Source: Eubacteriales bacterium (lineage in GTDB: Bacteria > Bacillota > Clostridia > Oscillospirales > Oscillospiraceae). Taken from it: a stretch of DNA of 64,000 nt. Shown piece after piece: positions 1,712 to 12,187 of this stretch (position 1 is its first letter; the number at the start of each line of letters is the position of its first letter). The notes under the pieces were generated by a model that saw only the letters and a program-made list of their open reading frames with translations, ran no database searches and was not told the origin of the DNA. A program made the position numbers and the translations under genes. Location of the stretch: the NCBI GenBank assembly GCA_030536515.1, contig JAUNPV010000004.1:1-64000 (forward strand), written 5' to 3'.

Positions 1712-1757
1712 TTGTCACAGCGAAACCGACGCCGGGGCACCGGTTTTGCTGTGACAA
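1712..1757 (-). terminator. Intrinsic terminator of the Rnf-like operon
   Basis: Long hairpin with arms TTGTCACAGC and GCTGTGACAA extended inward by AAACCG/CGGTTT, followed on the minus strand by a run of T residues. It closes the minus-strand operon ending at 1767 and insulates comM. Confidence 0.8.
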
Positions 1758-1766
1758 GGAGCAGAT

Positions 1767-2201
1767 TCAGAAAATTCCCATGAAGCACTGGGCGGCCAGG
1801 TACAGTCCGATGGCGCTGACCACCGGGGCGGCCTTGGCGGCGGGGCCGGTGGACAGGCGGTCGGTGACGGTGCCGAACACCCAGGTGGCGGCGGTAAAGA
1901 CCACGGCCCCCAGGACGGCCAGTCTCAGGGCCTCCACGGCGCTCACAAAGCAGGCGGCCAGAGGCAGCAGGCCGAAGGTCACGGCGGCCAGCACCGGGAT
2001 GCAGATGTAGCACCGCTTGGCCCCCGGGGCCAGGTAGTAGTCCAGAACCAGAGCGGCCAGGGACAGGGCCGTCATATTGACGGCGTTGAGGCCGGGGATA
2101 ATGACGTTGGGTGCAAAGGTCCGCACCAGCACAGCGATGAGGCAGGCTGCGCCCACCAGGGCGGCCAGGACGGTGTTCAAAACATAGGCTTTATTTTTCA
2201 T
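1767..2201 (-). CDS. Unknown four-TM membrane protein at the end of the Rnf-like operon
   Basis: 144 aa, very hydrophobic, with about four predicted membrane helices (roughly residues 7-27, 36-55, 66-98, 118-142) and no cofactor or catalytic motif that I can see. I do not recognise the family. It starts 3 bp after the rnfG stop, and its ribosome site GGGGAGG lies inside the end of rnfG, so it is almost certainly co-translated with rnfCDG. In ordinary Rnf operons rnfE and rnfA follow rnfG; those are about 190-200 aa with six helices and conserved cysteines, and this protein does not resemble them. It may be a membrane anchor or an electron-passing partner in a reduced complex; that is inference. 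Confidence 0.75.
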   Translation of the reverse strand: MKNKAYVLNTVLAALVGAACLIAVLVRTFAPNVIIPGLNAVNMTALSLAALVLDYYLAPGAKRCYICIPVLAAVTFGLLPLAACFVSAVEALRLAVLGAVVFTAATWVFGTVTDRLSTGPAAKAAPVVSAIGLYLAAQCFMGIF

Positions 2202-2204
2202 AGC

Positions 2205-2741
2205 TTAACCTCCCCATGCGGTGGCGCCGGAGTCGGCATCCGCCCCGGTGACGAAGGCCACGGCGGAATTGACACTGCGGGCAATGGCCTTGGAGGTGAC
2301 GGTGGCGCCGGAAATGGCATCCACGCCCTCCCCGACCTGGGCCTCCCCGGCGGTGTTCAGGAACTGGGACAGGAACACATGGTCGGTCAGAGCGCCGGCT
2401 CCCAGGCCGAAGGTCTCCGCCATGTCCCGGACCACCAGGCCGGTGACGGTGCCCCGGTTGCTGACACCCACCAACATGGTGATGTCGTCTGCATAGCCCC
2501 GGGTGACGGTTTCAATGACGTAGCCGTTTTCCGCCTTGTGGACGGAGCGGATGGTGTCGTCCTCACCGGCATAGGGCTCCAGCGTGAAACTCTCGCTGCC
2601 GGGCAGCAGGGTCTGCATAATGGACAGGTGCTCCGCCTGGGCGTTGGCATTGGCAATGCCGTTGAGACCCCAGGAGGCGGCAAAGAGAATCAGGGCAGCC
2701 GCCAGAATGACGGCAATGGGAAGCAGGATTCCTTTTTTCAT
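2205..2741 (-). CDS. rnfG: RnfG-like FMN-binding membrane flavoprotein
   Basis: 178 aa. An N-terminal signal anchor (about 5-25) is followed by an extracytoplasmic FMN-binding domain with the ApbE flavinylation motif DAISGATVTS at 141-150; the acceptor would be Thr147, as in known RnfG. In the Rnf complex RnfG passes electrons through covalently bound FMN. A second copy of the motif spacing, DADSGAT at 168-174, sits in the last ten residues and is not something I know from typical RnfG. ATGA overlap with rnfD shows translational coupling. The protein is near family length or slightly short. Confidence 0.88.
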   Translation of the reverse strand: MKKGILLPIAVILAAALILFAASWGLNGIANANAQAEHLSIMQTLLPGSESFTLEPYAGEDDTIRSVHKAENGYVIETVTRGYADDITMLVGVSNRGTVTGLVVRDMAETFGLGAGALTDHVFLSQFLNTAGEAQVGEGVDAISGATVTSKAIARSVNSAVAFVTGADADSGATAWGG

Positions 2742-3679
2742 TTTGCGGCCCCTCCTTTTCTGGTGCCGAAGCGGCGGATGGGGGTGTAGTAATCAATGAC
2801 CCAGACCAGGGCGTTCATCAGCAGAATGGCATAGGTCACGCCCTCGGGGAACAGGCCAAAGTAGCGGAAAATCACCGTCAGCACGCCGCAGCCGATGCCA
2901 TAGACAATCTGGCCCAGAGGAGTGGCGGGAGAGGTGGCGTAGTCGGTGGCCATGAAGATGGCGCCCAGCATGACGCCGCCGGACAGCAGGCTGTACAGCA
3001 TCCAGGAAACGGGGTGGCCGGTCTTGCTGAACACCAGGGTGATAACCGCAACGGATGCCAGGTACGCCGCAGGGATGCGGACGGAAATGACCTTGCGGTA
3101 CACCAGGTAAGCGCCGCCCAGCAGCAGGGCCAGGGCAGAAATCTCGCCGATGGAGCCGGGGCATCTGCCCAGGAACATATCCAGCACACTCTGCTCGGGC
3201 AGGGCGGGCATGACCATGTGGTGCAGAGGGGTGGCGGCGGTAACGCCGTCCAGGCCCGCATACCGGGTCAGACCCACAGGGTAAATGAGCATCAGGAAGG
3301 CACGGCCTGCCAGCGCGGGATTGAAAATATTCTGGCCCAGGCCGCCGCACAGCAGCTTCACCACCAAAATGGCGAACACGCTGCCCAGAGCCGCCTGCCA
3401 GTAGGGCACGGTGTGGGGCAGGGTCATGGCCAGCAGCAGGCCGGTGACCATGGCGGAGCCGTCCACCACGGTATTGCGGGTTTTGGTGGCCTTGGCATAC
3501 AGCCACTCCGTCAGCACAGCGGCGGCTACGGAAACAAAGGTCACCGTCAGGGCCCGCCAGCCAAGCACGCACACGCCCACCGCCAGAGCGGGCAGCAGGG
3601 ACAGCACCACATCCCGCATGATGCGGTTGGTGCGGAAATCACCCCGGATGTGGGGGGAAGAAGCAACAGTCAGATTCAT
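2738..3679 (-). CDS. rnfD: RnfD-like membrane flavoprotein
   Basis: 313 aa, polytopic (NQR2/RnfD/RnfE family). The segment DGVTAATPL at 144-152 matches the D-x-x-[ST]-[GA]-A-T-P flavinylation site of RnfD, with Thr150 as the predicted FMN acceptor. The long open frame extends upstream into rnfC, but the ATG at 3679 overlaps the rnfC stop as ATGA and gives the family start MNLTVASSPHIR. RnfD is an integral membrane component that moves electrons across the membrane with RnfG. It is coupled to rnfC upstream and rnfG downstream. No rnfE, rnfA or rnfB follows. Confidence 0.92.
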   Translation of the reverse strand: MNLTVASSPHIRGDFRTNRIMRDVVLSLLPALAVGVCVLGWRALTVTFVSVAAAVLTEWLYAKATKTRNTVVDGSAMVTGLLLAMTLPHTVPYWQAALGSVFAILVVKLLCGGLGQNIFNPALAGRAFLMLIYPVGLTRYAGLDGVTAATPLHHMVMPALPEQSVLDMFLGRCPGSIGEISALALLLGGAYLVYRKVISVRIPAAYLASVAVITLVFSKTGHPVSWMLYSLLSGGVMLGAIFMATDYATSPATPLGQIVYGIGCGVLTVIFRYFGLFPEGVTYAILLMNALVWVIDYYTPIRRFGTRKGGAAK

Positions 3680-4986
3680 TTTGCATTGGCCTCCCTTACC
3701 AGTTGTTTCCCCTTGCGGAATTTTTCCACCAGGGGGAGCTTGCCGGGGCAGGTGAAGGCACAGCTGCCGCACTCGATGCAGTCCAGCACGTGGAGCCGGT
3801 CCAGCTCGTCGGTGCGCCCGGCGTTGGTGAAGCGGTACAGATACAGGGGCTGCAGGCGCATGGGGCAGACGGACACGCACTTGCCGCAGCGCAGGCAGAC
3901 GGGATTTTCAGCCGCACCGTTGCGGTCCTTCAGCAGGCACAGAATGGAGTTGGTGGCCTTGATAACTGGCACCGCCAAATCGCTCTGGGCAATGCCCATC
4001 ATGGGGCCGCCGCTGATGACCCGCTCGGTTTTCTCGTTCAGGCCGCCGGCCACCTCAATCAGGTCCCGGAAGGGGGTGCCGATGCGGACGATGAAGTTCT
4101 GGGGCTCGGCAATGGCCTCGCCGGAGATGGTGACAATCCGCTGGGTCAGGGGCACGCCCAGCCGAACGGCCCGGTAGATGGCGGCGAAGGTGGACACATT
4201 GAACACAGCGCAGCCCACGGTGACGGGCAGCTGGCCGGGGGCCACCTCACGGCCGGTGAGGGCCTGGATCAGCTGCTTTTCTGCACCCTGGGGATACCGG
4301 GTGGGCAGGACTGCCAGCTCGATGCCGGGGAAATCCTTCTGCATGGAGCGGATTTTTGCAATGGCCTCGGCCTTGTTGTCCTCCACCGCCAGCACCACCC
4401 GCTCGGGATGGAGCACCTGGCACAGCAGCTGCATTCCCTTCAGCACCTGCTCGGGGTTGGTGCGCAGGAGGGAGTCGTCGGCGGTGATGTATGGCTCGCA
4501 CTCGCAGGCGTTGGCGATGAGGGTGTCGATGTGGCCCATGGAGGACATGGCCTTGACGTTGCCGGGGAAGGCAGCGCCGCCCATGCCCACGATACCGGCC
4601 TCCCGGATGGCGTGGAGGACCTGGTCGGCATCCAGCGCCTCCAGAGGGGCGGTGATGGGCTCGGACTCCACGGTCTGGTCCTGGAAGTCATTTTCAATGA
4701 CCACAGCGTTGACCATCCGGCCGCTGGTGTGGGGCCGGGATTCAATGGCCGTGACCGTGCCGGAAACGGAGGCGTGGACCGGCACGCACAGGCCCTGGCC
4801 GTCGCCAATCTTCTGTCCCCGGAGGACCCGGTCCCCCACCTTCACCAGAGGCGTGCAGGGAGCGCCGATGTGCTGCTGCATGGGAATCACCACGGTTTTC
4901 GGGGTGATGGTGTGCAGGGTGGTAATCCGGGTGGACATTTCCTTGTTATATTTCGGGTGGATACCACCAAAAAACAGGCGTTTCAT
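3676..4986 (-). CDS. rnfC: RnfC-like NADH/ferredoxin-side electron transfer subunit
   Basis: 436 aa with the usual RnfC order: N-terminal barrel-sandwich region, a nucleotide/FMN-binding domain resembling complex I 51-kDa subunit (GMGGAAFPGNVK near 155), an SLBB region, and two 4Fe-4S motifs, CLRCGKCVSVCP and CIECGSCAFTCP, near the C-terminus. Family knowledge: RnfC is the peripheral cytoplasmic subunit that exchanges electrons with NAD(H). Starts MKRLFFGGIHP, typical of the family. It is the first rnf gene here and follows apbE across a repeat of about 150 bp. Confidence 0.95.
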   Translation of the reverse strand: MKRLFFGGIHPKYNKEMSTRITTLHTITPKTVVIPMQQHIGAPCTPLVKVGDRVLRGQKIGDGQGLCVPVHASVSGTVTAIESRPHTSGRMVNAVVIENDFQDQTVESEPITAPLEALDADQVLHAIREAGIVGMGGAAFPGNVKAMSSMGHIDTLIANACECEPYITADDSLLRTNPEQVLKGMQLLCQVLHPERVVLAVEDNKAEAIAKIRSMQKDFPGIELAVLPTRYPQGAEKQLIQALTGREVAPGQLPVTVGCAVFNVSTFAAIYRAVRLGVPLTQRIVTISGEAIAEPQNFIVRIGTPFRDLIEVAGGLNEKTERVISGGPMMGIAQSDLAVPVIKATNSILCLLKDRNGAAENPVCLRCGKCVSVCPMRLQPLYLYRFTNAGRTDELDRLHVLDCIECGSCAFTCPGKLPLVEKFRKGKQLVREANAK

Positions 4987-5011
4987 TTATTTTCACCTCA
5001 ATTTTCAAACT

Positions 5012-5155
5012 AGCCTTCCCCTTGAGGGGAAGGTGGCAGGGCGTAAGCCCTGACGGATGAGGTGCGTTCGTCCCTGAAACATCTCAAAAGACGCGGGACA
5101 CCTCATCAGTCACCGGTCTGCGGACCGGTGACAGCTTCCCCTCAAGGGGAAGCCT
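5012..5155. repeat. Family A palindromic repeat (TTCCCC-hairpin element)
   Basis: About 144 bp imperfect palindrome between apbE and rnfC. Each end is a hairpin (CTTCCCCTTGAGGGGAAG and its partner CTTCCCCTCAAGGGGAAG), followed inward by GTGGC and a second small hairpin, then GACGGATGAGG against CCTCATCAGTC. The right end touches the apbE stop codon at 5155. Other copies lie at 32261, 43687, 47371, 61130 and 62257. No coding capacity, so this is a non-autonomous MITE-like element. Confidence 0.85.
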
Positions 5156-6180
5156 TATGTGCGAATCAGCTTTTCAAACCCGGGGCTGTAGAAGCAGGTT
5201 CCCTCTGCGTCCACCCACATGGCCTGGGCCTGGGTCTTGTCAAGCAGTGCCTGGCCCTCCTCCCGGGGGAGCAGGAACAGTGCCGTGGACAGAGCATCGG
5301 CCAGGCCGGAGTCCGGGCAGACGATGGTCACCGACCGCCAGTAGGCGCTGGGGTACAGGGTGTCCGGGTCAATGATGTGGTGGTAGAGCCTGCCGCCAAC
5401 CCGGAAGGCCCGCTGATAGTCGCCGCTGGTGACCACGCTGCCGCCGGATATGTACAGGGTGTGCAGGTTGGTGCTGCTGTCCGCAGGGTTCTGCACGCCG
5501 ATGACCCAGGGGGTGCCGCTCTCGTCCTTGGGACCGGTGGCGCAGACGTTGCCGCCCACGCTGATGAGCAGCCCCTTGGGGGCGTTTTCACTGACCCGCT
5601 GGGCAGACCAGCCCTTGGCCACGGCTCCTACGTCCAGCCGCACCGCAGGGTCGGTGATGAACACCGTGGAGGCAGCTTCATCAATGACCACAGCGTCCGG
5701 GCTCACATGGGCGGATGCTTCCTCCAATGCGGCGGGGTCCGGCAGGTAGGCGTTGGCGGGGTCGTCCAGGCTGTCGGTCCGGGCCCGGTGCCACAGATAC
5801 AGCACACTGCCCATGGCCACATTCACCCGGCCATCCGTCAGCTCGAAATAGTCCTTGCAGTCCAGCAGTAGGTCCAGGACGGCCCGGTCCACGGTAACGG
5901 GGGCAATGCCTGCGTTGTCGTTGACGGTTTTCAGGTTGTTCAGGCCCTCATAATCGTTGTAGATGTCGAACAGCCGGTGGTAGTGCAGCAGCTCGTCGTG
6001 GATGGCCTGGGCGGTGGCGGTGAAGGCCTCCTGGCTTTCGGCGGCCCCCTTGATGGTGGTCACCGTGTCAAACAGGGTCAGGAAGGTGGCCTCATACCGC
6101 TTCTGCTCCGCCCTCCCCTGCCCGGCACAGCCGGACAGGAAAAAGCTAAGCAGGAGCAGCCCGCAAATCAGCCGTTTCAC
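5155..6180 (-). CDS. apbE: ApbE family FAD:protein FMN transferase (lipoprotein)
   Basis: 341 aa. Lipobox SFFLSGC puts the lipidated Cys at 18, so the enzyme works outside the membrane. The ApbE fold follows, with VGAVAKGW near 190, the Mg/flavin segment HHIIDPDTLYPS near 275 and the C-terminal ADALSTALF. ApbE moves FMN from FAD onto a Thr in D-x-x-[ST]-[GA]-A-T motifs. Its substrates are evidently next door: RnfG, RnfD and the two-domain lipoprotein 6177-7277, whose stop overlaps this start (ATGA). Normal length for the family. Confidence 0.95.
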   Translation of the reverse strand: MKRLICGLLLLSFFLSGCAGQGRAEQKRYEATFLTLFDTVTTIKGAAESQEAFTATAQAIHDELLHYHRLFDIYNDYEGLNNLKTVNDNAGIAPVTVDRAVLDLLLDCKDYFELTDGRVNVAMGSVLYLWHRARTDSLDDPANAYLPDPAALEEASAHVSPDAVVIDEAASTVFITDPAVRLDVGAVAKGWSAQRVSENAPKGLLISVGGNVCATGPKDESGTPWVIGVQNPADSSTNLHTLYISGGSVVTSGDYQRAFRVGGRLYHHIIDPDTLYPSAYWRSVTIVCPDSGLADALSTALFLLPREEGQALLDKTQAQAMWVDAEGTCFYSPGFEKLIRT

Positions 6181-7277
6181 TGGGCGGCCTTGGCAACCAG
6201 TGCCTGGAAGCCGCCGATGGCGATGGTGACGGAGGCAGTCAGGTCCGCCTCGGCAGGGGCGGTCTTTTCGTTGACGGCGATGCCGGCCACCTCAGTCGGG
6301 GTCTTGCCGGTGATGTAGGCGGCGAAGGCGGCAGCCTGCTCATCCCACTCGGCGATGGCGCCGCCCCAGGCCTTCATGCCGTAGTTCTCGCCCAGCTCGT
6401 TCTTGGTGGCCACGGGGGCGGTGACATCGGTGGTGATGGTCCCGGCATCATCCAGGGAAACCTTGGCCTGGACAGCGTCGATGGCGGCGGAGGTGATGGT
6501 GTCGCCGTTCATGGTCATGGCCAGGACCGTAGCATCCAGCTGGGCCAGGCCGGTGTGGGTGCCGTTCTCAGCGTCGTGGACATCGGAAACGGAAACGGTG
6601 TTGTCGGAGACCAGCTTCAGCTCGTCCCCGGCCTGAGCGCCCAGGTGCCGGGCGTTGGCCACGGCCTTTTCAATGGCGGAGACATAGCCGCCCAGGTAGA
6701 TGGTGGCGGAGGTGGCCAGGTCGGAGCCGTCGGGGGCGTAGCCGGTCTCGTCAATGGCGCCGGACTTCAGCTCCTCCACGGTCTTGCCCACAGCGAAGGC
6801 AGCCAGGGCGGCAGCCTGCTGGTCCCACTCGGCCACGGCGTTGCCATAGGCCACCATGCCGTAGTTCTCGCCCAGCTCGTTCTTGGTCTGGACCGGGTTC
6901 TCCAGGGCGACGTAGTTGCCGTCGGCATCCAGCTCGGCGCTGACGGTGGACTTGATGCCGTCGATGATGCAGCTCTGGATGACGCCGCTGTCGTCCACGT
7001 TGACGGCCACCAGGGTCACGTCATAATCGATGGATGCAGGGGCCTCGGCGGTGGCGGAAACGCTCTTGCCCACATTGGCAACGATGGCCAGGCCGGTCTT
7101 GACAGCGCCCTCAGCGGGAGCCTCGGTGGAAGCGGGAGCCTCGGTGGCGGGAGTGGTCTCCGGGACCGCCGCGCCCTCGGTGGGGCAGGTGCAGTTGTAG
7201 ACAACGGGGGTCCCGGCGCAGCCGGCCAAAAGGCTTGCGATGAGGACCAGGGTGAGAATAACAGAGAGCTTCTTCAT
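6177..7277 (-). CDS. Lipoprotein with two FMN-binding-like repeat domains
   Basis: 366 aa. Lipobox SLLAGC with Cys20, then a Thr/Pro/Ala-rich linker (about 30-60), then two homologous domains with a period of about 160 residues. TKNELGENYGM occurs at 131-141 and again at 291-301. Each domain ends in a segment aligned to an ApbE target: DLATSAT (186-192) and DLTASVT (345-351), where the usual Gly is Ser but Asp and Thr are kept. The layout resembles diflavin extracytoplasmic lipoproteins such as Listeria PplA, an analogy that I infer. First gene of the apbE-rnf island, with a good GGAGG site. It probably carries electrons outside the membrane; flavinylation is unproven. Confidence 0.8.
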   Translation of the reverse strand: MKKLSVILTLVLIASLLAGCAGTPVVYNCTCPTEGAAVPETTPATEAPASTEAPAEGAVKTGLAIVANVGKSVSATAEAPASIDYDVTLVAVNVDDSGVIQSCIIDGIKSTVSAELDADGNYVALENPVQTKNELGENYGMVAYGNAVAEWDQQAAALAAFAVGKTVEELKSGAIDETGYAPDGSDLATSATIYLGGYVSAIEKAVANARHLGAQAGDELKLVSDNTVSVSDVHDAENGTHTGLAQLDATVLAMTMNGDTITSAAIDAVQAKVSLDDAGTITTDVTAPVATKNELGENYGMKAWGGAIAEWDEQAAAFAAYITGKTPTEVAGIAVNEKTAPAEADLTASVTIAIGGFQALVAKAAQ

Positions 7278-7392: not shown

Positions 7393-7418
7393 GGCGGCCT
7401 GAGGGCAGGCCGCCCTAC
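7393..7418. repeat. GTAGGG-type repeat, GGCGGCCTG module
   Basis: Palindrome GGCGGCCTG/CAGGCCGCC ending in CCCTACA (GTAGGG read on the minus strand). The TAG inside GTAGGG is the stop codon of the esterase gene that ends at 7415. Related copies lie at 12281, 25517, 40756 and 62594. Confidence 0.75.
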
Positions 7419-8242
7419 AGCGCCGCCACCAGCTCCTCGAAGGTGATTTTGCCCTGGGTGAATTTTTCCAAGGCCAGATAGCTGTTCACCTGGGGGGAGT
7501 ATTCCCCGCCGGACAGGGCCTCTGCCATGGCCTGCTCGTCCGGCAGCGGCTCCAGCACGTTCTGCCCGGTCCGCAGGGCTTCATAGTAGCGAAGCCCAAA
7601 TCTTCTCTGGGATTCTGCATTGATATGGATGCAGTCCGGGTTGGCCTTCAGTCCAAGGCCGGTGACAAAGCAGCAGTGGCGGTGAGTGCTGGCATAGCGC
7701 AGCAGTTCTGCGTTGACCCTTTCGTATTCCGTGCAGTTTGCGCCAAAGGCCGCCTTCCCCAGATAGTCCCCCAGGCCGCCCACCAGGAAGGGCACCTCCG
7801 GGGCGTTAAGCGCCCGTCGGAGAGCTTCCTCGATGGCCTCCAGCTTCCGGGCGTAGTCCCGGTATTTGCCCTGGTAGCTGTCGTTTTCCCCCTGGTGCCA
7901 CAGGATTGCCGCCAGCTCGCTGGTTTCCAGGGCAAATTTCGCCTCGGCCACCGCATGGCGGAAAAGCACGCCGTCGGTGCTCCATTCGTCGATGGAGCTT
8001 CCCCCCTCGGCGCAGGGAATCAGGCCGATGGACTCCTCCCGGTGCTCGTCGCACCACCGTTTGGCAAAGGAGGCCGCCGGACCGATGCCGGCAATGGCAC
8101 GGTCAAAGTGGATTGGCTCCACCATCATCTGCCAGCGGCCGTTTCGCAGCATCAGAATGTGCTCGTCCAGGATGGGCTTTACCTCATGGAGAAAGCCCCG
8201 GCCAGCCATGTTGGACTGGCCCAGCAGCAATACGGATTTCAT
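7415..8242 (-). CDS. SGNH-type carbohydrate acetylesterase (SASA/DUF303 domain)
   Basis: 275 aa. GQSNMAGRG at 8-16 carries the nucleophile Ser10. EGGSSIDEW, HQGENDS near 142 and DCIHIN near 210 supply the other SGNH blocks, with the Asp-x-x-His pair. This is the sialate O-acetylesterase/CE6-like family that removes acetyl groups from sugars. There is no signal peptide, so it is probably cytoplasmic. It stands apart from its neighbours functionally. Its TAG stop lies inside a repeat terminus (7393-7418), so the C-terminus may have been trimmed by repeat insertion. Confidence 0.8.
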   Translation of the reverse strand: MKSVLLLGQSNMAGRGFLHEVKPILDEHILMLRNGRWQMMVEPIHFDRAIAGIGPAASFAKRWCDEHREESIGLIPCAEGGSSIDEWSTDGVLFRHAVAEAKFALETSELAAILWHQGENDSYQGKYRDYARKLEAIEEALRRALNAPEVPFLVGGLGDYLGKAAFGANCTEYERVNAELLRYASTHRHCCFVTGLGLKANPDCIHINAESQRRFGLRYYEALRTGQNVLEPLPDEQAMAEALSGGEYSPQVNSYLALEKFTQGKITFEELVAAL

Positions 8243-8255
8243 AAATCAATACCTC

Positions 8256-9248
8256 TCAATCGTCAGTTTTGGTTTGCTCTCTTGGCAGGGTCACGGTGAA
8301 GGCGGCCCCCTCCCCCGGTCTGCTTTCCACGGTGATGGTTCCGTGGTGGTCCTCCGCCACCTGGGCGGCGATGGCCAGGCCCAGGCCGGTGCCTCTGCCC
8401 TGCTCCTTGGTGGTGAAGAAGGGCTCGAAAATCTTCCCCTGCATGGCCGCCGGGATGCCGCAGCCGGTGTCGGACACCCGGATGCGGACGCTGCTGTCGT
8501 CAAAGGCGGTGTCCACCGTCAGCACGCCTCCCTCCGGCTCCATGGCGTGAAAGCCGTTGAGAATCAGATTCAGCAGCAGCTGGCTCAGCTGAAGCTCCCC
8601 GCCGGTGATGCGCTGGTCCCAGCAGTTCAGGTTAAGCCGCAGCTCCACGTTTTTCGGCTTGGCGGGCATGGCCACGTCCAGGGTCCTGCGGACCAGCTCG
8701 TCGGGGGCCACCTGGGTGAATGTGGCGTCGCCCCCCTTCCGGGACAGGTCCCCCAGCCGGGAGATGATGGTCTTGGCCTTCCGGGAGGCGTTGTAGATTT
8801 CCAGGATGCTGTCGTAAAGCTCCTCCTCGTCAGCAGGCAGCTTTTCCAGCGCCATGAGGCTGTAGCCCATGATGGGAGTCAACAGGTTATTGAACTCATG
8901 GGCAATGGAGGCGCTCAACGTGCCCAGCAGCTCCAGCCGCTGGTGGTGGGCCAGCTGCTGCTGGGTCTGGTTCAGCCGCTCCATGGCCTGGACCTTCCTT
9001 TGCAGCAGCCCCACCTCCCGCCTTTCCCGGATGCTGGGCATGAGGAAGGCCGCCCCGGCCACCATCCCCGCCGCCAGCAGGGAAACGCCCAGCAGCAGCC
9101 ACCGGACGCCCCGGCACAGCGGCCCGGCGTCCCGCAGAAACGCCCCCAGCTCCGGCGCAGTCAGGGCCAGCGCCAGGGCGCAGCCCCCCAGCGTCAGCAG
9201 CCCCAGAGTCAAAATCAGCAAAAAAACGGAAATTTTCGACGGTTTCAT
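8256..9248 (-). CDS. Sensor histidine kinase, divergent from its probable regulator
   Basis: 330 aa. Two membrane helices (about 7-30 and 49-71) enclose only a short external loop, so a large ligand domain is lacking. A coiled linker (75-105) leads to a HisKA box SIAHEFNN with His117, then an HATPase_c domain with an N box, G1 DTGCGIP and G2 GRGTGLGLA. The HEFNN form is typical of NtrB/HPK4-like kinases, while the divergent regulator at 9338 is OmpR/PhoB-like, an uncommon pairing. No HAMP domain is visible. The signal is unknown. Confidence 0.88.
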   Translation of the reverse strand: MKPSKISVFLLILTLGLLTLGGCALALALTAPELGAFLRDAGPLCRGVRWLLLGVSLLAAGMVAGAAFLMPSIRERREVGLLQRKVQAMERLNQTQQQLAHHQRLELLGTLSASIAHEFNNLLTPIMGYSLMALEKLPADEEELYDSILEIYNASRKAKTIISRLGDLSRKGGDATFTQVAPDELVRRTLDVAMPAKPKNVELRLNLNCWDQRITGGELQLSQLLLNLILNGFHAMEPEGGVLTVDTAFDDSSVRIRVSDTGCGIPAAMQGKIFEPFFTTKEQGRGTGLGLAIAAQVAEDHHGTITVESRPGEGAAFTVTLPREQTKTDD

Positions 9249-9289: not shown

Positions 9290-9337
9290 ATCAGGAAAGA
9301 GCCAATGTGTAAAGGAAAATAATCGGGAGGGATGCTC

Positions 9338-10021
9338 ATGGCGGACACAGTGCTCATTGTGGATGACGACGAGGCGGTGCAGACCATGCTCTATAAGGTC
9401 ATCCGCAGCAATTCTCTGGAGGCGGAGACTGCATCCTCCGGGGAGGCCGCTGTGAAAATGGCGGTCCAGCGTCACTATGAGCTGATTTTGCTGGATGTGA
9501 ATATGCCGGGGATGGACGGGTTCCAGGTGGTGCAGCAGCTGAGAAGCCGGGGCATCCAGACCCCCATCATCATCGTCAGCGGCCGCCAGGAGGATTACGA
9601 CACCCTCTACGGCCTGGACATCGGCGCTGACGACTATGTGACCAAGCCCTTCAATCCCATTGTGCTGGGGGCCAAGGTCAAGGCCCTGATCCGCCGCAGC
9701 AAAGGCGCCCGGGCCGGGGACCAGAGCGTCATCACCGCCGGTCCCTTCCGCTACAACACCAGCACCCTGCGCTTTTATAAAGGAAGCCAGGAAATCGTGC
9801 TGAGCTCCAAGGAAAACGCCATGATGAAGCTGTTCATGGACAACGTCAACCGCATTTTCTCCAAGGATATGATTTACGATTTAATCTGGGGCGAGGCCAT
9901 CATCGACGAGAACGCCATTATGGTCTACATCAACCGGCTGAGACAAAAAATCGAGGACGACCCGGGAAAGCCCAGGTACATCCAGACGGTACGGGGCCTG
10001 GGGTATCGGTTTGTGGTATAG
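9338..10021 (+). CDS. OmpR/PhoB family response regulator
   Basis: 227 aa. Receiver domain (1-118) with acidic pocket VDDD, phosphoacceptor Asp53 in LLDVNMPG, and TKPF near 103. A C-terminal winged helix (about 130-227) ends in YINRLRQKIEDDP...VRGLGYRF, the OmpR signature. The ATG at 9338 is preferred over 9332 because GGGAGGG at 9325-9331 would leave no room for the earlier start. It is divergent from the histidine kinase at 8256-9248, which is its likely partner. Targets are unknown. Confidence 0.9.
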   Translation: MADTVLIVDDDEAVQTMLYKVIRSNSLEAETASSGEAAVKMAVQRHYELILLDVNMPGMDGFQVVQQLRSRGIQTPIIIVSGRQEDYDTLYGLDIGADDYVTKPFNPIVLGAKVKALIRRSKGARAGDQSVITAGPFRYNTSTLRFYKGSQEIVLSSKENAMMKLFMDNVNRIFSKDMIYDLIWGEAIIDENAIMVYINRLRQKIEDDPGKPRYIQTVRGLGYRFVV

Positions 10022-10859: not shown

Positions 10860-10973
10860 GTTTTCACCCCCTTCGGCTTCCGTATGCCTAGATGATACAC
10901 CATTGTCCCGCAGGAATCAACCGTTGTCTTTTCTTTTTTTGTGAACTTTCTGTAGATTGTATTCACATTCCAC

Positions 10974-11002
10974 TGTACTTTTTCCCTTCGGTGCGCTATA
11001 AT
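10974..11002 (+). promoter_or_regulatory. Promoter of the flavodiiron protein gene
   Basis: Consensus TATAAT at 10997-11002 with a weak TGTACT 17 bp upstream, 34 bp before the GTG start. The AT-rich divergent region 10860-11035 serves rubredoxin on the other strand. Confidence 0.5.
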
Positions 11003-11035
11003 GATTTCAGATACATATACACAAGGAGGAACACC

Positions 11036-12187
11036 GTGACGATTACAAACGACATTCGCTACATCGGCGTCAACGACCATGAGGTTGACCTGTTTGAAGG
11101 ACAGTATATTGTCCCCAATGGCATGGCCTACAATTCCTACGCCATCCTGGACGAGAAAATCGCCATTATGGACACCGTGGACGGCCGCTTCGCCGCCCCC
11201 TGGCTTGCCAACATCGCATCCGTGCTGGAGGGCCGCCGGCCGGACTACCTGGTGGTCCAGCACATGGAGCCGGATCACTCCGCCAACGTGGCAAAATTTC
11301 TGGAAGCCTATCCCGAAGCCACTGTGGTGGCCTCTGCCAAGGCCTTTACCATGATGAAGCAGTTCTTCGGCTCTGACTATGCAGACCGCCGGATTGTGGT
11401 TTCCGAGGGCAGCACCCTGTGCCTGGGCCGCCACACCCTCACCTTTGTCACCGCCCCCATGGTCCACTGGCCCGAGGTCATTGTGACCTACGACAGCGCT
11501 GACAAGGTGCTGTTCTCCGCCGACGGCTTCGGCAAGTTCGGCGCACTGGACGTACAGGAGGACTGGGCCTGCGAGGCACGGCGGTACTACATCGGCATTG
11601 TGGGCAAGTACGGCCCCCAGGTCCAGGCATTGCTAAAAAAGGCCGCCGGGCTGGGCATTCAGACCATCTGCCCCCTTCACGGCCCGGTGCTCACCGAAAA
11701 TCTGGGCTACTACTTAAACCTCTACGACATCTGGTCCTCCTACCGGCCCGAAAGCGAGGGCGTGGTCATTGCCTACGCCACCATCTACGGCAATACCCGC
11801 CAGGCTGCTGAGCTGCTGGCTGAGAAGCTGACCGAAAAGGGCTGCCCCAAGGTGAGCCTTTTCGACCTGGCCCGGTGCGACATGGCCGAGGCTGTGGAGG
11901 ATGCCTTCCGGTATCACAAGCTGGTGCTGGCCTCCGCCACCTACAACGGCGACGTTTTCCCCTTCATGCAGACGTTCATCCACCACCTCACCGCCCGGAA
12001 CTTCCAAAACCGGACCGTGGCCCTGATGGAAAACGGCACCTGGGCCCCCACCGCCGCCAAGGTCATGGCCAAGCTGCTGGAGGGCAGTAAAAATCTGACC
12101 TTTGCAGAGCACTCCGTCAAAATTCTCTCCGCCCTGAGCGAGGATTCCAGAGCCCAGATTGAGGCGCTGGCCGAAGAACTGGCCTAA
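11036..12187 (+). CDS. fprA: A-type flavodiiron protein (oxygen/NO reductase)
   Basis: 383 aa. The N-terminal metallo-beta-lactamase domain (about 1-245) holds the diiron ligands in HMEPDHS near 82, with further His residues in PMVHWPE and PLHGPVL. The C-terminal flavodoxin domain begins at IAYATIYGNTRQAAE (about 243-257) and binds FMN. These enzymes reduce O2 to water or NO to N2O in anaerobes, with rubredoxin as donor. GTG at 11036 is chosen because AAGGAGG lies 6 nt before it; the earlier frame is untypical. Divergent from rubredoxin. Confidence 0.95.
   Translation: MTITNDIRYIGVNDHEVDLFEGQYIVPNGMAYNSYAILDEKIAIMDTVDGRFAAPWLANIASVLEGRRPDYLVVQHMEPDHSANVAKFLEAYPEATVVASAKAFTMMKQFFGSDYADRRIVVSEGSTLCLGRHTLTFVTAPMVHWPEVIVTYDSADKVLFSADGFGKFGALDVQEDWACEARRYYIGIVGKYGPQVQALLKKAAGLGIQTICPLHGPVLTENLGYYLNLYDIWSSYRPESEGVVIAYATIYGNTRQAAELLAEKLTEKGCPKVSLFDLARCDMAEAVEDAFRYHKLVLASATYNGDVFPFMQTFIHHLTARNFQNRTVALMENGTWAPTAAKVMAKLLEGSKNLTFAEHSVKILSALSEDSRAQIEALAEELA

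Follow-up and report, generated by a model that had tools for sequence, protein, structure and literature searches.

A conserved RnfCDG operon with its own flavin transferase and surface lipoprotein is a probable electron-export module of Oscillospiraceae

A stretch of 64,000 nucleotides from an Oscillospiraceae genome (Eubacteriales bacterium, assembly GCA_030536515.1, contig JAUNPV010000004.1, positions 1 to 64,000; hereafter the window) carries a reduced operon related to the Rnf complex, which was analysed computationally following an original prediction made from the same sequence. This six-gene run (hereafter the island) occupies window 1712-7277 on the minus strand and encodes a lipoprotein, the flavin transferase ApbE, RnfC, RnfD, RnfG and a 144-residue membrane protein (MP), followed by a terminator. 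Some gut bacteria of the Oscillospiraceae probably use this operon for the outward transfer of electrons and not as the customary Rnf pump. Judging from sequence comparison, we place a probability of about 0.72 on the island being half of an Rnf complex that works as an electron-export module, in which electrons would flow outwards from the reduced form of nicotinamide adenine dinucleotide (NADH) through RnfC, RnfD and RnfG to a diflavin lipoprotein.

The gene calls confirm the one-directional gene order and the strong closing terminator of the original prediction (Table 1); the hairpin was equalled in none of 200 shuffles and is not listed on the minus strand by a simple consensus scan. Neighbouring genes are 3 bases apart or overlap by 4, with the exception of apbE and rnfC (168 bases), and rnfD likely starts at 3679, its longest open reading frame (ORF) beginning at 3880. 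No rnfA, rnfE or rnfB was found inside the window operon, and neither the lipoprotein nor MP matches a Pfam or NCBIfam family above cut-off. The island RnfG scores 60 bits with the rnfG model TIGR01947 (cut-off 102), compared with 112 for the ordinary RnfG. Among the island sequences collected, the eight cluster cysteines of RnfC are kept in all 45, the lipobox Cys20 of the lipoprotein in 41 of 41 and Cys18 of ApbE in 42 of 43.

The five acceptor sites for flavin mononucleotide (FMN) that had been predicted to cluster with ApbE all exist and are conserved with a common D-x5-T geometry: D144-T150 in RnfD, D141-T147 and D168-T174 in RnfG, and D186-T192 and D345-T351 in the lipoprotein. The threonine is present in 46/46 sequences for RnfD T150 and 47/47 for RnfG T147, and in 47/47 as aligned for T174, where the row of genome G196 is a fused protein whose aligned column is not the tail; in the lipoprotein, T192 is found in 40/41 and T351 in 39/41, with serine in the others. 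When conserved D-x5-T/S patterns were sought in all six alignments, these five sites and one more, D73-T79 of RnfD, came up.

The second predicted RnfG site lies at the extreme C-terminus, usually ending in SxATxWGG, in 46 of 47 island RnfG (43 of 47 with a strict pattern, the 46 with a looser one) and in none of 76 ordinary RnfG, which rules out a chance second SGAT; T174 is preserved through four codons, and the main site reads [ST]GA[TS] in 58 of the 76 ordinary RnfG. For FMN_red proteins, flavinylation of a predicted site has been shown experimentally and a model puts the sites on an unstructured C-terminal extension, according to the available text of PMC11334425. The island RnfG of G196 (L019:7030-9402) has 790 amino acids, with three FMN_bind stretches (Pfam) and two DVTSSAT-motif repeats replacing the tail. 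An ordinary Rnf operon of a Clostridia metagenome-assembled genome (L116:8929-11337) encodes an RnfG of 802 amino acids with seven FMN_bind stretches. A profile of 25 of the 41 lipoproteins matches PDB 2kzx (E 2e-5), in which a DAISGAT stretch lines up with the first lipoprotein site, and the size and pairing of the repeats fit the FMN-bind2 type, described in the accessible part of PMC11334425 as often occurring in even numbers. Each lipoprotein repeat also holds one conserved cysteine beside a conserved ID motif (C103 in 40/41, C264 in 37/41).

The sixth gene had been described as an unknown membrane protein in an operon devoid of RnfA, RnfE and RnfB. This description stands in part, as none of the three genes lies in the operon and no family is reached above cut-off; however, profile comparison indicates that MP is probably a shrunken, cysteine-free derivative of RnfA. 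A profile of 26 of the 49 MP sequences was matched to RnfA by hhalign with 92% probability (E 5.5e-7, 105 columns; 83% when the first 10 MPs were used), compared with 1.2% for RnfE, 0.3% for RnfD, 1.3% for reversed RnfA and at most 12.2% for 30 block-shuffled RnfA profiles; derivation from RnfE or RnfD was rejected on these values (about 1% and below 1%). When the profile was run against 3,069 ORFs of 80 named loci, the two true MPs were followed by 22 RnfA in a row (E 7e-5 to 0.017), and the next match was one RnfD (E 0.018). Mean hydropathy gives five helices for MP and six for RnfA, with MP helices 1-5 parallel to RnfA helices 2-6. MP lacks the first RnfA helix, together with the CPF cysteine motif next to it, and the loop bearing TTNC. 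These two motifs contain the two invariant cysteines of RnfA, and their regions include part of the ion site as located in A. woodii (PMC11889175, in the text available). No cysteine is invariant in the 49 MP sequences, which rules out MP as a new [2Fe-2S] carrier.

These features bear on the proposal that a half-Rnf still pumps Na+ through RnfD, as suggested for NqrB, and acts as an energy-conserving NADH dehydrogenase. RnfD is highly conserved, and one published view places the ion path in RnfD/NqrB (PMC12174285, as excerpted). In contrast, the A. woodii study, in its accessible text, sees no ion path in RnfD and assigns pumping to the surroundings of the [2Fe-2S] cluster in RnfA/E (PMC11889175); both cysteine motifs are missing from MP, and we regard a Na+-pumping island as highly improbable.

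Within the samples searched, the island turned up only in one bacterial family, Oscillospiraceae. MP was detected in 10 of the 200 family genomes surveyed (6 of 106 genera) and in 40 of 136 from the window's genus; one of these 40 (G315) has a remnant, leaving 39 real carriers. Across the order, 6 of 394 genomes gave a match at E <= 1e-6, all six from the same family. The synteny comparison called for by the original prediction found the six genes intact, with order and strand unchanged, in 41 of 50 loci (window included) from six genera; among the other nine, seven are cut by a contig end, the lipoprotein of G135 lies in two frames and G315 retains apbE alone. No RnfA or RnfE gene occurs in any of the 50 loci. 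In one locus (G053), a ferredoxin-like ORF (L020:17029-17412) lies about 1.8 kb upstream of the lipoprotein and shares 36% identity with part of RnfB. When named genomes were scanned with the island RnfD profile, the best 80 of 594 relatives comprised two islands at the top (L069 and L070, uncultured Oscillospiraceae) and 78 ordinary rnf loci; RnfE or RnfA is in view in 75 of these 78 and was not found within the available DNA of L076, L086 and L126.

The window assembly (2.63 Mb in 48 contigs, 98% complete) contains in total two RnfA/RnfE genes, two RnfC and two RnfD. A complete ordinary rnfCDGEAB operon, in which NCBIfam identifies the C, G, E, A and B genes, is located on contig C27 and includes the only rnfA, rnfE and rnfB of the genome. 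A genome search for these three genes had been recommended because their presence elsewhere with no other rnfCDG copy would mean an ordinary Rnf split in two. The complete operon on another contig excludes a split Rnf, and thus the island is an extra rnfCDG. The ordinary Rnf of this genome resembles records of uncultured Oscillospiraceae and, less closely, Candidatus Faecousia, and few ordinary loci have the same rnf neighbours. In a tree of 96 RnfC (19 of 45 island and 77 ordinary sequences; a quick method with support from the SH-like approximate likelihood ratio test only), a branch with support 100 sets the island RnfC apart, and they group with the 10 ordinary sequences from the window's own group (support 97). 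Mean RnfD identity is 64% within the islands, 56% within the ordinary sequences and 50% between the two. An origin by one duplication of the ordinary operon inside the family fits these sequence data.

Several other observations concern rnfD copies in related genomes. Two loci (L067 and L068, from G198 and G053) encode a third, distant RnfD-like protein of 338 amino acids, both genomes also having island and ordinary RnfD; that of L068 matches PF03116 alone, with no NAD domain. In G333 (contig C1; the genome of L070), the ordinary rnfD was matched as two separate pieces (L191 and L192), suggesting a broken gene, and the island is intact. Two further genomes of the family have an RnfD (G122:C152:6432-7343 and G058:C109:325-1215) with no RnfA/E and no MP match; the RnfD of G058 lies close to a contig end.

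Whether the island depends on ordinary Rnf partners can be judged from its carriers. RnfA/E genes (PF02508) occur in 90 of the 136 genus genomes, and a genome-wide search found none in nine of the 39 island carriers, each of which has exactly one RnfD, that of the island. The nine are G135 (99% complete), G201 (96%), G241 (91%, with 8% contamination), G278 (89%), G200 (88%), G219 and G256 (82% each), G249 (65%) and G248 (53%). G135, G200 and G201 form one clade (support 100), and an accidental miss of the locus in all three has a probability of about 5e-5, calculated from completeness with the three taken as independent. The ratio of nonsynonymous to synonymous substitution rates (dN/dS) in this clade (two pairs) is 0.13-0.15 for RnfC, 0.12-0.13 for RnfD, 0.05-0.13 for RnfG and 0.09-0.13 for MP. 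The island subunits thus persist in genomes in which a search for an RnfA/E partner found none, and because this clade keeps RnfC, RnfD and RnfG under purifying selection, the island can probably stand alone. RnfA/E was likewise not found in 37 of the 96 genus genomes without MP; many of them are incomplete, but the genus may be able to do without ordinary Rnf.

Across all six genes, dN/dS ranges from 0.02 to 0.36 (8 to 11 pairs per gene). The patchy occurrence of the island (39/136 genus genomes), its degradation in G315 and the split lipoprotein of G135 would be expected of a decaying duplicate without function; against such low ratios in every gene and flavin sites conserved across six genera, this explanation is hardly credible. 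The claim that the island forms a distinct machine is instead borne out by the monophyly of its RnfC, its constant gene order in six genera and the purifying selection in the clade in which RnfA/E was not found.

Several points weigh against a self-sufficient export module. Incompleteness alone predicts 6.3 losses of RnfA/E among the 39 carriers, compared with 9 observed (P 0.16), so these absences could be assembly gaps. In favour of the module, 5 of 16 carriers show no RnfA/E at a completeness of at least 88%, a cut-off picked after the data had been seen, with 1.03 expected (P 0.002); with the threshold set to 80, 85, 90 or 95%, none is seen in 7/29, 5/20, 3/12 and 2/8 carriers (P 0.036, 0.016, 0.016 and 0.017). 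Against it, MP matches single RnfA sequences weakly (best E 7e-5), and a search with its profile at E <= 10 gave no solved RnfA. Most lipoprotein sites have [STV]AT or [ST]VT in place of [S/T]GA[S/T], and EetB, the presumed source of flavin for the island (see below), was not found in 5 of 41 island genomes searched (G201, G241, G309, G319 and G332). Electron direction is not fixed by sequence. Finally, RnfA/E is present in 30 of the 39 carriers, and mixed complexes are therefore possible there. Island RnfCDG might then be alternative subunits that swap into the ordinary Rnf, share its RnfA, RnfE and RnfB and tune it for other conditions, which the average identity of 50% between island and ordinary RnfD would also allow. 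However, the nine carriers in which neither RnfA/E nor a second RnfD was found, three of which form one clade under purifying selection, argue against such a role, as do the island's own RnfA-like protein and the lack of RnfA/RnfE in all 50 loci; we consider it unlikely.

The arrangement of the retained subunits points to how an export module would operate. Electrons in Rnf pass from ferredoxin through RnfB, RnfA/E, RnfG, RnfD and RnfC to NAD, as described in the available text of PMC12174285. The island keeps the contiguous part of this circuit from NAD to the outside and lacks the part from ferredoxin to the outside. For such an arm, combined with ApbE and a predicted diflavin protein at the surface, the simplest use would be to oxidise NADH and export the electrons. 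NADH would reduce the FMN and [4Fe-4S] clusters of RnfC, and electrons would cross the membrane via the riboflavin and covalent FMN (T150) of RnfD to the FMN on T147 of RnfG, that is, along the latter half of the Rnf circuit in reverse. A mobile C-terminal arm of RnfG, bearing T174, might then pass them to the pair of FMNs on the lipoprotein at the cell surface, and this protein would reduce an extracellular acceptor. MP would most likely be a redox-inactive scaffold in the seat of RnfA beside RnfD and RnfG, and ApbE would load the flavins, using flavin adenine dinucleotide (FAD) supplied by an exporter of the EetB type, with its gene either next to the island or at another place. As it lacks the [2Fe-2S] site of RnfA/E, the module probably pumps no ions. 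The path from NADH through RnfC to extracellular flavoproteins in the original prediction is thus permitted by the retained subunits and sites; we infer the electron flow itself, its outward direction, the acceptor, the ion coupling and the roles of the RnfG tail as an arm and of MP as a scaffold.

A broader proposal, which we advance tentatively and rate somewhat below an even chance, is that the island adds one more class to the ten operational ones of flavinylation-linked transmembrane electron transfer. An Oscillospiraceae Rnf would have been duplicated and its ferredoxin and ion-pump half cut away; RnfA would have become a cluster-free five-helix scaffold, and RnfG would have acquired another covalent FMN, carried by a swinging C-terminal arm that passes electrons to a diflavin surface lipoprotein, giving one-way, non-pumping, NADH-driven export.

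The genes flanking the island were compared in 40 loci with at least 1,250 upstream bases, the G315 remnant included. Co-directional eetA-eetB genes (PF07009, PF07456) lie upstream in 12 of the 40, with eetB 0 to 719 bases from the next gene, and EetB is encoded somewhere in 36 of the 41 island genomes searched. In Listeria, according to the accessible part of PMC9973259, EetB is the substrate subunit of an exporter that brings FAD to ApbE/FmnB, and deletion of eetA gives no phenotype. This neighbourhood bears on the possibility that electrons run inwards, an extracellular or surface donor reducing the lipoprotein and RnfG, and RnfC making NADH. Ordinary Rnf does run from RnfG through RnfD and RnfC to NAD (PMC12174285, text as available), and the direction is left free by sequence; however, a covalent-FMN lipoprotein with ApbE/FmnB and EetB is the electron-export equipment of Listeria (PMC9973259, same part), and no donor enzyme was seen among the 14 most widespread flanking clusters inspected. 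Inward flow is accordingly rated very unlikely.

A histidine kinase with a divergent response regulator lies upstream in 14 of the 40 loci, the window included, and is associated with the island and not part of its core. In the window, a gene of the sialic-acid acetylesterase family (SASA; 7415-8242, minus) lies between the kinase and the lipoprotein, with no homologue seen in the available upstream DNA of other islands. At window 10892-12187 (plus), 3.6 kb upstream of the island, is a gene for a metallo-beta-lactamase and flavodoxin protein (Pfam ODP, Flavodoxin_5), which we take, by analogy, to be a flavodiiron oxygen or nitric oxide reductase.

Table 1. Features of the island and its upstream neighbours in the window
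Feature	Position	Strand	Basis or remark
Lipoprotein	6177-7277	minus	two FMN-bind2-like repeats of ~155 amino acids; predicted flavin sites T192 (codon 6702-6704) and T351 (codon 6225-6227)
apbE, FAD:protein FMN transferase, lipoprotein	5155-6180	minus	PF02424, E 8e-61
rnfC, NADH/FMN/2x[4Fe-4S] subunit, island type	3676-4986	minus	TIGR01945, E 6e-157
rnfD, membrane flavin subunit; predicted flavin site T150 (codon 3230-3232)	2738-3679	minus	TIGR01946, E 1e-89
rnfG, extracytosolic FMN subunit; predicted main site T147 (codon 2301-2303)	2205-2741	minus	PF04205, E 2e-15
Flavinylation-tag-like C-terminal tail of RnfG, D168-x5-T174 to last residue	2208-2240	minus	46/47 island RnfG
MP, 144 amino acids, five helices, probable RnfA derivative without cluster cysteines	1767-2201	minus	hhalign, helix match
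Intrinsic terminator closing the operon	1712-1757	minus	-28.9 kcal/mol, z -6.1, then T run
Histidine kinase	8256-9248	minus	Pfam HisKA/HATPase_c; synteny
Response regulator, divergent from kinase	9332-10021	plus	Pfam Response_reg, Trans_reg_C; synteny

Taken together, our analyses suggest that the Rnf circuit is modular, with an RnfCDG arm able to live without RnfA, RnfE and RnfB. A natural RnfCDG without RnfA/E makes the dispute over the ion carrier, RnfD or RnfA/E, testable, and the conserved RnfG tail would serve as a natural short flavin tag. The island is also a genetic candidate for flavin-based extracellular electron transfer (EET) in gut Clostridia, and gene-cluster definitions built on RnfB overlook such systems. 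In the available text of the open-licence literature, no description of an RnfCDG module without RnfA/E/B was found; such a module may sit unremarked in published tables.

The island fits none of three published definitions. In the accessible text of Meheust et al. 2021 (PMC8238504), RNF is defined by RnfB, NQR/RNF-like systems by an RnfD-NqrF fusion and EET by the type II NADH dehydrogenase NDH-2. RnfB is absent from the operon, and the partial match in G053 is the only one, and a distant one, over the 50 loci, none of which encodes RnfA and RnfE with [2Fe-2S] cysteines. The homology of MP to the RnfA family is detectable, and the cysteines of the two cluster motifs are missing. The fusion of PF03116 and PF00175 is not seen, as island RnfD matches PF03116 alone, nor is the threonine loss, T150 being present in all 46 sequences. 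No NDH-2 is encoded in the window operon; the conserved upstream neighbours are EetA/EetB and the two-component system. The Pfam keys given for other systems (PF12801, PF01794, PF03929, PF16357, PF02683 and PF13486) are not among the Pfam matches of the six proteins.

Compared with the Rnf complex (rnfCDGEAB), the island shares RnfC, RnfD and RnfG with conserved cofactor residues, its RnfG falling below the rnfG model cut-off; it differs in lacking RnfB and RnfE, in its reduced, cysteine-free RnfA, and in adding its own ApbE, a predicted diflavin lipoprotein and the tag-like RnfG tail. With the Listeria-type flavin EET system (Ndh2, PplA, FmnB, EetA/EetB), it has in common an ApbE-type transferase, a surface lipoprotein with predicted flavins and, beside some islands, EetA-EetB; however, Listeria uses Ndh2 and quinone where the island has RnfCDG. 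The lipoprotein resembles double FMN-bind2 proteins, which have two domains of about 160 amino acids with one site each, forming a pseudo-symmetric pair in a published model known to us from part of its source, but it is tied to RnfCDG, and its motif is mostly AT or VT without GA. The nearest functional parallel is the two-subunit Nqr/Rnf-like fusion system (Meheust 2021, Huang 2024), which Huang et al. 2024 (PMC11334425), in the text available, present as a one-way path from NAD(P)H to the outside. As far as these sources describe it, this system also has a single transmembrane arm leading from NAD(P)H to an extracytosolic flavoprotein with proposed one-way flow; it occurs mainly in Actinobacteria and the candidate phyla radiation, with RnfD/NqrB fused to an NqrF-type NAD domain and the covalent-FMN threonine lost, whereas in the island T150 is kept and RnfC would carry out the NADH oxidation.

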